Shown: one piece after another, positions 2,026 through 18,094 of the stretch
How positions within the stretch are numbered: the first letter of the stretch is position 1
How the letters are laid out: the number at the start of each line of letters is the position of its first letter
Source: Thermoplasmata archaeon
GTDB taxonomy: Archaea > Thermoplasmatota > UBA186 > UBA287
Assembly (NCBI GenBank): GCA_011620765.1
Contig: WOYO01000005.1
Coordinates: forward strand, 1-35,905
Length of the DNA: 35,905 nt
Direction: 5' to 3'
Notes under the pieces: model-generated
The model's database searches: none
Told to the model about the DNA's origin: nothing
The model's input: only the letters and a program-made list of their open reading frames with translations
Program-made: the position numbers and the translations under genes

Positions 2026-2354
2026 ATAGGCATATGGGTTGGAACAAAAAAAAGCTTCAAAGGGACTGTTGAAAGCGAGAGCATATTTATCGTATCTTTC
2101 CTGGTTGGTGTTTTTCTTGTTGCATTTGTTATTCTCACTTTGAGAAACATGTTCTATGCACAGATGGAAGATTTTCCTCCGCTCATTGAGCAGCAAAGGA
2201 TCTATCTGTGTTGGAGTCTTGAGTAATAAGTAGTTAGGCTGCGATATGCTCTACGCTTATAGTTCTTATCCTGGCGAATCCATTGGCATACCTCCTTGCC
2301 AGAAAGGATTTTGTGGGTAAAAGCAAAATAGAGGGTATAGCCGATATAAAATAA
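2026..2354 (+). pseudogene. wtpB: Decayed remnant of the N-terminal part of a WtpB/ModB-type ABC permease
   Basis: Frame 2026-2226 reads IGIWVGTKKSFKGTVESESIFIVSFLVGVFLVAFVILTLRNMFYAQMEDFPPLIEQQ… and hits a stop; another frame (2241-2354) reads [37 protein letters not shown], the conserved permease segment, and stops before the EAA-type loop region. Confidence 0.8.
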
Positions 2355-2388: not shown

Positions 2389-3318
2389 ATGGATGATGAC
2401 TCGTTCTATCTTTTGATTGCGATCGTTGATCTGATCATAATCCATGGCCTTGGGGGATCTACACTTCTATCAGCAACCATAACAGGAATGACAGCAACAC
2501 TTGCTGTTTTGGGCATCTCATATCTCATTCTTCTAGCGATCCTGCTTCTCTATATCCTGGATAATGGTATCGCTGAAAAGATGAGAGCAAGGACTATAAT
2601 AGAAAATAACTCGATAACATCATTCCTCTTACTTATCTCTCTCATTTTCTTCATTCTTTGTATCGGTATAGGCGGCAATGCAGCAACAATATTTGATCTC
2701 TCGCAGAACTCTAGCCTCGAAGAGATCTTTGGTTCCATATCTCTGGGCCCTGCGAATTTGATAGGGCAAAGCCTGATGACATTTTTCATATTCTTTTTTG
2801 GACCATTGGCTTATGTAGCTTTAGCAAAAGGTTATGGCGCAAAGAAGAGCTTTGAGATCCTGAAGCTGAAGATAACCAGGCGCAGCATTCTATACTTCTT
2901 AGCTGGTATACCCGCAGTTATTTTACTGAACGGCGCTTTAGAATATCTATTGTTATTTCTGCAGGATCTCTTCGGATTTCAGCTCGCAGAAAATGTTGTC
3001 GCGATAGGATTGGTGCAGGGCATGAATGTGCCCATGGCTTTTATCATGGCAGCGCTTACAGCTTTCGGTGAAGAGCTTTTCTTCAGGGGCTTTATGCAGA
3101 ACCGGGCTGGAATCTGGCTCACAACAATAGTCTTCACCCTCTCGCACATAAGTTATGGAAATCTCTATGAGATCATAGCTGTATTTGTGTTTTCTCTCAT
3201 AATGGGCTATGGAGTGAAAAAAACAAAGGACCTGGGCTTTTCCATAGGCATGCATTTTACAAACAACTTTGCAACAGCTATCATCATCAACTATTTCCCG
3301 CATCTGGCGGGTATCTGA
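2389..3318 (+). CDS. CPBP family intramembrane glutamic endopeptidase
   Basis: Multi-TM; motifs FGEELFFRGFMQ, FTLSHISYGN and GMHFTNN. Confidence 0.85.
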   Translation: MDDDSFYLLIAIVDLIIIHGLGGSTLLSATITGMTATLAVLGISYLILLAILLLYILDNGIAEKMRARTIIENNSITSFLLLISLIFFILCIGIGGNAATIFDLSQNSSLEEIFGSISLGPANLIGQSLMTFFIFFFGPLAYVALAKGYGAKKSFEILKLKITRRSILYFLAGIPAVILLNGALEYLLLFLQDLFGFQLAENVVAIGLVQGMNVPMAFIMAALTAFGEELFFRGFMQNRAGIWLTTIVFTLSHISYGNLYEIIAVFVFSLIMGYGVKKTKDLGFSIGMHFTNNFATAIIINYFPHLAGI

Positions 3319-14805: not shown

Positions 14806-15506
14806 TCCTCATATCCATTCTCTTTTATGTTCTCTAAAAGCTCCTGCGGATTGCCCGAGCACACTATAGTCCCATCCAGCATTATGAAACCTCTATCAAC
14901 AAGGACATACTGCATTATTGAGCCTAAATGTGTTATTATTAAACCTGATGCTTTTCTAACTCTGGGCTTTTCTCGCTTTAGCAGCGCGTTCATTGCCTTC
15001 CCTATCAACTCTAAATTCTCAATATCAACACCCGAATCCGGCTCATCAAAGAGAGAGAGATCAGGCTCCATCAAAAGCAGCTGAAGCATCTCACTCCTCT
15101 TCAGCTCACCACCAGAGAAGCCCAGGTTAACATCTCTTTCAAGAAAGTGGGACATATTCAGCTCGGAAGCAACCGATTTTATTCTGTTCTCGTCAGAGTG
15201 TATGTGCTTTAAGAGATCAAGAAGCTTAACCCCGCGCACAGCTGGGGGCTGCTGGAATACCACGCCAATGCCCTGCTTAACCCGCTCATCAGCTGCCATC
15301 TCTGTTATATCCTTACCATTGAAAAATATTGCTCCTCCTGTAACTCTATAATTCGGGTTGCCTGCTATAGCTTGAATGAGCGTTGACTTACCGCTCCCAT
15401 TAGGGCCAAAAAGGACACAGCTCTCTCCATCCTCTATCTTGAGGTTTACTTCCTTCAGTATGCCTTTACCCTCAACCTCTACACTAAGATTCTTTATCTC
15501 AAGCAT
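14784..15506 (-). CDS. sufC: SufC-type ABC ATPase
   Basis: Walker A FGPNGSGKSTLIQ, signature LGFSGGELKRSEMLQ, Walker B LSLFDEPDSGVDIENLE. Confidence 0.92.
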   Translation of the reverse strand: MLEIKNLSVEVEGKGILKEVNLKIEDGESCVLFGPNGSGKSTLIQAIAGNPNYRVTGGAIFFNGKDITEMAADERVKQGIGVVFQQPPAVRGVKLLDLLKHIHSDENRIKSVASELNMSHFLERDVNLGFSGGELKRSEMLQLLLMEPDLSLFDEPDSGVDIENLELIGKAMNALLKREKPRVRKASGLIITHLGSIMQYVLVDRGFIMLDGTIVCSGNPQELLENIKENGYEECARCRQ

Positions 15507-15562: not shown

Positions 15563-16285
15563 TTAGTCTACAGGCTCGAACTCGCTCTTTTTTGCCCCGC
15601 AGATAGGGCACACCCACGTATCTGGTATCTGTTCAAATGGCGTGCCGGGTGCAACGCCGCTCTCAGGATCTCCTTTTGCAGGGTCATACACATAGCCACA
15701 GACAGTGCATCTATACTTTTTTTGCGCGTTCATTTTTTCAGCCTCCTCACCATTAGCCTTCTCATCCTTTATATAAGTTGGTGCACTCTTTGGTGCCTTA
15801 CCTCCCTTTATCTTATGGTAGTAATCGTAGGTCATTGGCTCTTCATTGCTCATGATATCGCAATCAACAACTTCTCCCACAAATATCGTATGCGTTCCAG
15901 CATCCATTTCATCCATAACCCTCGCTTCTATGTATGCTATGGAATTGTCTAGAACTATCGGTGCTCCTGTTTTTCCATCCTTATAATTTACTCCTTCAAA
16001 CTTGTCTATATCTCTCCCGCTCCTGAAACCAAAACGGCCTACGAACTCCATAGATGTGCTCTTTGAGAGCACAGAGGCGCAGAACACCTTGCTTTTCTCT
16101 ATCATACTATGCGTCAAATTTTCTTTATTCAGAGCAACAGCAATCCTTGGAGGTTCTGAAGTTACCTGGAATAGTGTGTTGGCTATCTGTCCATTCTTTT
16201 TATCTCCATCAAATGTGCTTACCACATAAAGTCCGTAGCTTATCCTGTGCAAAGCTTTTGGATTCATGGTCTTTATTTTTTTCAT
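15563..16285 (-). CDS. hrb: High-molecular-weight rubredoxin-type protein: flavin reductase domain fused to rubredoxin
   Basis: N-terminal FMN-binding flavin reductase (SYGLYVVST…[23 protein letters not shown]); C-terminal [47 protein letters not shown]. Confidence 0.9.
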
Positions 16286-16917
16286 CGTTTATTTAACTTT
16301 GTCTCAAGGATCTCTTTGCACTCAAAGAGATCCTTTGCACAATAATCTGCCTCTGCGCTCTGAGAAAAAACAAGAACGGTTTTGAAACCTGATGCTTTTG
16401 CCCCTAATATATCCCTCTCCAAGGAGTTGCCCACAAATACTCCAGTGCTTAAATTGCTCTTACGCAGAGCCAGTTCGAATATCCTTCTATCTGGCTTTGC
16501 ATAGCCTGCTTCTTCGCTTGTTGTTATAGAGGAGAAATATCCGCGTATCGGCTTTATCTGAAACTCTATGTACTGCGTATCAGCATCGCTTATCATGCCT
16601 GCGGGAGCAAAAGCCTCCAGGAGCTCAATAGCGCCATCATTTAACCTCACATACTTCTTATGCATTCTGAAGTACTCCTCCAGAAACCAGTTTGTTGGAC
16701 CATTCTTTACCCGGCTAAGGAACCAGTCCTGTGCTATCTCTAAAGTGTTGTACCACCTGCCTCCGGCAACATTTTTCTGCATTGCCTTGTTGTAGCTTGC
16801 CAAAAGCTCTTCAGCATCAAAACCATATCTCTTTTCTATGGCTTTCATAAGCTCTTCATGCGCTCTCTCATCACTCTTTTCATCCATGAGCGTGCCGCCA
16901 AAATCAAAGAATATCAT
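16282..16917 (-). CDS. HAD family hydrolase
   Basis: [57 protein letters not shown]. Confidence 0.82.
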
Positions 16918-18094
16918 ATTCGCCTCCAGCCAGTATAGAGAGAAAACTTAGAACCTCTTCATGATCCTTAAATAAATATCGAGCTTTCGTCTCCCTCCTC
17001 CCGACAGCTATTGTTATGCCTCTATCCCCTACGGCTTCAAAAGCCGGCTCATCGCTGTTATCATCCCCTATATATATGCAGAGGCACGAGTTTTCAGAGA
17101 GCAGAAACTGAACCACTTTGCCCTTGTTCCATCCTTCATCAGGTCTAAATTCTACAATCTTTTTCCCATACTCTATATGCATATTGTCCAGGTCTAAACC
17201 TTCGAGCATTCTTCTAAACTCATCAAAAAATTCTCCTTCATCGGCGTTCCTGTAGTGAAGCGCTATGCCAAAGGTCTTATCCTCTACCACCACTCCTTTC
17301 GTCTTCATCCCATTGAAGTGCTCATACAATCTTTTTACAGTCTCTCTGTATTGATCAAAGCGCTCTTCAGGTTCCTTTACCCTATAAAACTCGAATCCAT
17401 GATTTGCCACTACAGGTAAATCCAGATCAAGAACGCTTTTTATTGATCTCATAGATCTGCCAGTAACTATGATCACCTCATCCTTCAATCTTTTAAGTAT
17501 CTCCTTACCTTTCTCCCTCAGCACAGCATCCTCTGGGTTTTTTGTTATAGGCACCAGGGTTCCATCGTAGTCCAGCAGCAGCAACCTTTTTTCAGCCCTG
17601 AGCGCTCTTTCAGCCATCGCCAGCTTCTCAAAATCTTTTGCCATGATCTCTCTCTTACCATAAAAAGCCATGGATGGATGGTATGAGATGAAAAAGTGAT
17701 CGACAAATGTGCCATGGTATTTATCTAAGCTCATTTTCCCCAGAAACGATTCTATAGCCGTAGAGCCTAGAAGCGCAATTATCCCTGGCTTCACCATTCT
17801 TATCTCCTCCTTTAACAGAGGCAAGCATCTTGCAATTTCGTCTTTTTTTGGCTTCCTGTTCCCAGGCGGCCTGCATTTGACAACATTTGTTATGTATAAA
17901 CTCTCTCTATCTATTCCTGCCCTCTTCAACAGACCATCAAGCTCTTTCCCTGCTTTTCCCACAAAGGGTATGCCAGAAGCTACCTCTCTTTCTCCCGGAG
18001 CCTCCCCTATCAGCATAACCGGTGCGCGCTCATTCCCGTAGCCATAGACCGCCTTTGAGGCTAGAGGACAGCCATTGCACTCATTTCTCTGCAT
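16904..18094 (-). CDS. Fusion protein: family-4 uracil-DNA glycosylase and OtsB-like trehalose-phosphatase (HAD)
   Basis: UDG: Fe-S cysteines CNGC…KCRPPGNRKPKKDEIARC, GEAPGEREVASGIPFVGKAG, ISYHPSMAFYG. OtsB: LLLLDYDGTLVPITKNPEDAV, IIVTGRSMRSI, ANHGFEFY, GWNKGKVVQFLL, IYIGDDNSDEPAFEAV. Confidence 0.88.
   Translation of the reverse strand: MQRNECNGCPLASKAVYGYGNERAPVMLIGEAPGEREVASGIPFVGKAGKELDGLLKRAGIDRESLYITNVVKCRPPGNRKPKKDEIARCLPLLKEEIRMVKPGIIALLGSTAIESFLGKMSLDKYHGTFVDHFFISYHPSMAFYGKREIMAKDFEKLAMAERALRAEKRLLLLDYDGTLVPITKNPEDAVLREKGKEILKRLKDEVIIVTGRSMRSIKSVLDLDLPVVANHGFEFYRVKEPEERFDQYRETVKRLYEHFNGMKTKGVVVEDKTFGIALHYRNADEGEFFDEFRRMLEGLDLDNMHIEYGKKIVEFRPDEGWNKGKVVQFLLSENSCLCIYIGDDNSDEPAFEAVGDRGITIAVGRRETKARYLFKDHEEVLSFLSILAGGEYDIL

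Follow-up and report, generated by a model that had tools for sequence, protein, structure and literature searches.

An intact tungstate-binding protein gene that stands directly before the remnant of a permease gene raises two questions: how the transporter came to be incomplete, and what the surviving protein does. We examined this locus in a window of 35,905 nucleotides, which is contig C56 (positions 1–35905) of a MAG that comprises 101 contigs and is 87% complete. Tungsten is scarce, and its capture with picomolar affinity is the first selection step.

A truncated wtpB pseudogene

The N-terminal third of wtpB is found on the forward strand at positions 2034–2351. The preliminary description had proposed two conserved permease segments in different frames, and both are encoded where it placed them. 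With the WtpB of ex4572_44 (genome G390) as query, tblastn aligned segment 1, which includes the first transmembrane stretch, at 2068–2184 (+, frame 1) and segment 2 at 2190–2348 (+, frame 3), with a joint E-value of 1.4e-15. The WtpB of genome G393 recovered the same remnant with an E-value of 3.7e-15. Against the NCBIfam profile tungstate_WtpB (NF040839), the joined segments gave an E-value of 1.3e-12 over profile positions 6–88 of 251, and segment 2 alone gave 7.2e-9. Segment 1 alone had no significant match to this profile and was therefore dropped as proof of WtpB by itself. In a whole-genome search with the WtpB profile the remnant scored 2.0e-11, with two TGA codons and one TAG codon inside the match. 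Judged by this homology, which is well above chance, the remnant at 2034–2351 is a WtpB pseudogene.

The likely start of the gene is the ATG at 2034. One base is missing at approximately 2185–2189, which shifts the frame between the segments, and a second one-base slip probably lies in the A8 run after the start codon. The claimed in-frame stops are present in segment 2 as TGA (2220–2222) and TAG (2235–2237). The abrupt end before the permease core was likewise borne out: homology is cut off after 2348, and the core has no counterpart. The remnant, with a third of the profile, two stops and a frameshift, is thus not a full-length permease with an intact transmembrane core. The right junction (2349–2388) leads from the end of wtpB homology to the promoter-like region (TTTATAA) of a CPBP gene, which begins directly after it. 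Because two nonsense codons and a truncation are present, sequencing error is unlikely as the sole cause of these lesions.

The intact tandem binding protein

Beside the broken wtpB, the binding protein is indeed intact, as the preliminary description stated. Its gene (147–1907, +) is open over 586 codons with no internal stop, and the product carries a lipoprotein signal with the lipobox LLAGC and Cys26. The WtpA domain (168–1154, +) scored 430.8 bits against NF003196 (cut-off 355) and 372 against TIGR03730 (cut-off 242.75). Its relatives in the PDB are 3k6u (2.9e-105) and 2onk_E (2.2e-103). The carboxylates within NPNLDPCGYR and PKEAEL are common to the solved WtpA proteins, and conserved acidic residues (Glu/Asp) of WtpA are presumably its tungstate ligands.

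The second half (1167–1856, +) is related to 3lr1, 3muq and 5my5 in the PDB and is a TupA-like domain of TGSP type, as placed by profile, residue comparison and tree. Homology spans the whole TupA domain, with a score against NF041772 of 178 bits under a cut-off of 400, so that by homology this half is a TupA-like domain and not TupA proper. In D. alaskensis TupA, the site residues are the TTTS motif, H59, R118, T124 and D170 (PMC5517513). The half studied here retains equivalents of R118, T124, D170, H59 and the motif serine (S12), with ATGS in place of TTTS. It has no signal peptide of its own, being fused behind WtpA.

Tungstate transport genes elsewhere in the genome

No intact permease or ATPase follows in the window, in agreement with the preliminary description. 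By tblastn and profile search of all 35,905 nucleotides we found no other wtpB, and the window holds no wtpC. Its sole WtpC-like match (14817–15458) is SufC, an identity that rules it out as a transporter ATPase. Two other window genes, both on the reverse strand, are fusions as well. A 396-aa ORF (16904–18094) has the odd pairing of a family-4 uracil-DNA glycosylase (4–159) with a trehalose-phosphatase (167–389), and at 15563–16285 a flavin reductase domain is fused to a C-terminal rubredoxin.

Beyond the window, a profile search of the contigs of this 87%-complete genome found no wtpB. The best other match, a TupB-like permease on contig C78, was ruled out as the missing WtpB by that identity. 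Within the same 87%, no other contig carries a wtpB 3′ part and there is no wtpC. The best WtpC-like ATPase, on contig C32, is UgpC/MalK-like and passes the UgpC cut-off, which rules it out as an orphan WtpC. The 87%-complete genome thus lacks the wtpB and wtpC of a functional WtpABC importer. Contig C78 does encode a separate Tup-type importer with adjacent tupA, tupB and tupC. Its TupB scores 139.5 bits, under the 320-bit cut-off, and is accordingly called Tup-like. The C78 tupA (L017 5643–6733) is crossed by a gap of 100 N, and both flanks encode the same peptide (VDCSLVHA and DCSLVHA). The gap therefore likely hides an overlap, and this tupA is probably intact. The genome also encodes three AOR-family enzymes and one molybdopterin oxidoreductase, and the cell therefore probably needs tungsten or molybdenum.

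Related fusions in other genomes

In the WtpA tree, the window protein falls in a four-row clade with G390, G393 and G395 (support 100/97), apart from the WtpA proteins of its own phylum. In the TupA tree, its second half falls in an 11-row TGSP clade (100/99), and the C78 TupA lies outside that clade. In genome G239, of the same phylum, the wtpB and wtpC genes behind a WtpA-TupA fusion are both intact, and ex4572_44 encodes WtpA-TupA-TupA followed by a broken wtpB and an intact wtpC. The reverse order, TupA-WtpA, precedes intact wtpB-wtpC in two MAGs labelled Proteobacteria (L053 945–2729 and L054 1961–3712). In the fusions of G394, G395 and G396, the partner of WtpA is another SBP_bac_11 (ModA-like) domain, and a permease and a WtpC-like ATPase accompany them. 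These WtpA-SBP_bac_11 genes (L142 6186–7952, L143 2838–4604 and L144 4911–6680) are followed by an ORF of about 162 aa, the permease and the ATPase. As read from these gene neighbourhoods, the WtpA/TupA fusion is a recurring architecture, mostly with intact wtpB-wtpC, and is not unique to the window.

Several relatives have peculiarities of their own. The ex4572_44 wtpB (L052 8290–8990) lacks 28 codons and has a frameshift after IEGIIDI, the codon at which the window wtpB also ends; this shared break may reflect chance, common history or assembly error. The fused protein of ex4572_44 is incomplete as well: the WtpA end is missing, as are 27 aa of its final TupA domain. In G393 (L141 1297–6397, on a 1.9-Mb contig), DUF6884/DpdA-like, HerA-like and NurA-like genes lie between wtpA and wtpB-wtpC; this insertion at the same wtpA/wtpB junction is possibly a defence cluster. 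In G002, a 618-aa TupA-FmdE protein (L047 7701–9557), whose TupA is 71–73% identical to that of the window, has no permease alongside. In the literature, seen mostly as titles and abstracts, neither WtpA-TupA fusions nor this wtpB pseudogene turned up, which is weak evidence of novelty. The pseudogene is ordinary, and we regard the binding-protein architecture as mildly novel.

Origin of the incomplete operon

Window bases 1–55 exactly match the start of contig C99 (55 bases, reverse-complemented), and this overlap (1–55, +) is unique to these two contig ends. It links the window to gcvT, with which C99 begins and which is oriented away from the window. No upstream gene was found at 1–58, a region that is gcvT spacer. 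The conserved right neighbour is the gene for a CPBP (Rce1-like) protease (2389–3318, +), 58% identical to its counterpart in G001, a genome of the same genus. In G001, gcvT and the CPBP gene point away from each other across a spacer of about 50 bp, with no trace of wtp genes. The sister-genome comparison thus found a relative with the two neighbours adjacent and no intact wtpABC at this place. Relative to G001, the window has an extra block of about 2.4 kb, made up of spacer, fused gene and wtpB stub, between gcvT and CPBP. Helicase, phosphoribosyltransferase and CarS-like genes beyond CPBP are common to both genomes. The GC content of the block (0.40–0.45) does not contrast with the rest of the contig.

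The gcvT-CPBP adjacency in G001 and the WtpA tree together speak for insertion of a partial operon rather than for decay of a wtpABC already resident here. The source would be a wtpA-tupA::wtpB-wtpC operon with relatives in Methanosarcinales such as ex4572_44. A piece of it would have been acquired as a fragment between the divergent gcvT and CPBP genes, or trimmed at its CPBP-side edge inside wtpB. The stub is dead, and the remainder of wtpB and wtpC are absent from the 87%-complete genome. The orphan binding protein would have been retained, and tungstate imported by the separate TupBC of C78. We give this account, taken as a whole, about an even chance of being right. What counts against it is that the genome is 87% complete and that the same-genus comparison consists of one genome of 63% completeness, which is compatible with insertion here or with deletion there.

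The preliminary description spoke of a disrupted transporter. That wtpB is dead and wtpC absent from the 87%-complete genome holds, but decay of a resident operon in place is the less favoured origin. On this view, wtpABC once resided between gcvT and CPBP; a deletion removed the wtpB end together with the entire wtpC, the binding gene survived, and in G001 the operon disappeared completely in a separate event. Decay would leave the same anatomy, the sister genome could have lost the block, and TupABC could have made WtpBC dispensable. However, the G001 promoters stand tightly back to back with no wtp trace, and the window WtpA clusters with another lineage. We consider this history possible but about half as probable as the inserted fragment.

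Fate of the orphan binding protein

Substitutions relative to G390 at codon positions 1, 2 and 3 are 55, 35 and 144 in WtpA and 42, 26 and 108 in TupA, and thus concentrated at third positions. The NG86 dN/dS is about 0.09 (0.21/2.31) for WtpA and about 0.05 (0.16/3.2) for TupA, with dS saturated; these low values span the whole divergence from G390 and give no date for the loss of wtpB. Identity to the G390 proteins is 54% for the stub (compared with WtpB) and 70–74% for the two binding halves, and over the stub columns the G390 and G393 WtpB proteins are 67% identical. The pattern is consistent with a stub under relaxed selection next to an ORF under constraint, but leaves the loss undated.

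The fused gene could also be recently acquired junk, functionless and heading for the same decay as wtpB. No partner gene is adjacent, the intact binding protein is possibly young, and only one genome of the lineage was seen with the fused gene. On the other hand, 586 codons are free of stops and frameshifts against at least four lesions in the stub of about 300 bases, and the binding residues are retained. We hold a functionless gene to be improbable.

Most likely the protein is an orphaned double binding protein that still captures tungstate at the membrane, as its preserved frame and residues suggest. Under the inserted-fragment account, its TupA-type half may pass tungstate to TupBC; against such a hand-over, this half is not in the clade of the C78 TupA. 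A partner permease elsewhere, or repurposing, had been suggested earlier. The first has a candidate in tupB/tupC on C78. As for the second, the fusion occurs mostly beside intact wtpB-wtpC and is therefore itself no sign of repurposing, which may still have taken place.

The protein might also work independently of any permease, as a membrane-anchored tungstate trap or sensor for which a transporter is not required. In G002 (where TupA is fused to FmdE), G421, G413, L055 and L057, the region read around the TGSP-clade TupA contains no adjoining permease. Yet the WtpA-containing fusions in the relatives read always precede a permease gene (broken in ex4572_44), and the protein has no signalling domain; we rate this role lower still. 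Least credible is an assembly or sequencing artefact, in which sequence was wrongly joined within wtpB and the real wtpB-wtpC went unassembled: the assembly is fragmented and incomplete, and single-base indels make up one or two of the lesions, but two in-frame nonsense codons precede the truncation, CPBP and the genes beyond it match the G001 order, and the 3′ end of wtpB is on no other contig.

Comparison with known tungstate importers

The locus resembles the WtpABC importer (WtpA, NF003196/TIGR03730; WtpB, NF040839; WtpC, NF040840) in a WtpA half that exceeds both cut-offs and in the order wtpA-then-wtpB. It differs in the extra TupA domain, in the truncated wtpB pseudogene and in the lack of wtpC. 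With the TupABC importer (TupA, NF041772; solved as 3lr1 and 5my5) it shares homology over the whole TupA domain and the equivalents of R118, T124, D170, H59 and S12. Unlike TupA, this half has ATGS for TTTS, scores far under the NCBIfam cut-off, lacks its own signal peptide and is fused behind WtpA.

The fusions of G239, ex4572_44, L053 and L054 likewise combine both binding families within a single chain, and wtpB and wtpC come after it. The bacterial L053 and L054 proteins differ from the window protein in their reversed domain order, and ex4572_44 differs in that it has a second TupA domain and that its own wtpB is broken, whereas the window lacks permease and ATPase. That two different tungstate-binding families have been combined within a single lipoprotein in several lineages, with either one first, suggests that selection favours tandem capture. 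More speculatively, and with a low probability in our estimate, the tandem WtpA-TupA would be a distinct two-site tungstate capture device spread among archaea and bacteria, here outliving its own permease and feeding TupBC or acting as a permease-free trap. The permease-less case offers a chance to test importer switching by binding proteins. In GlnPQ-type importers, tandem substrate-binding domains with amino-acid ligands are fused to the permease (PMC8025302). The window protein is like them in having two tandem binding domains to serve one importer, and unlike them in being a free lipoprotein composed of two different oxyanion families.
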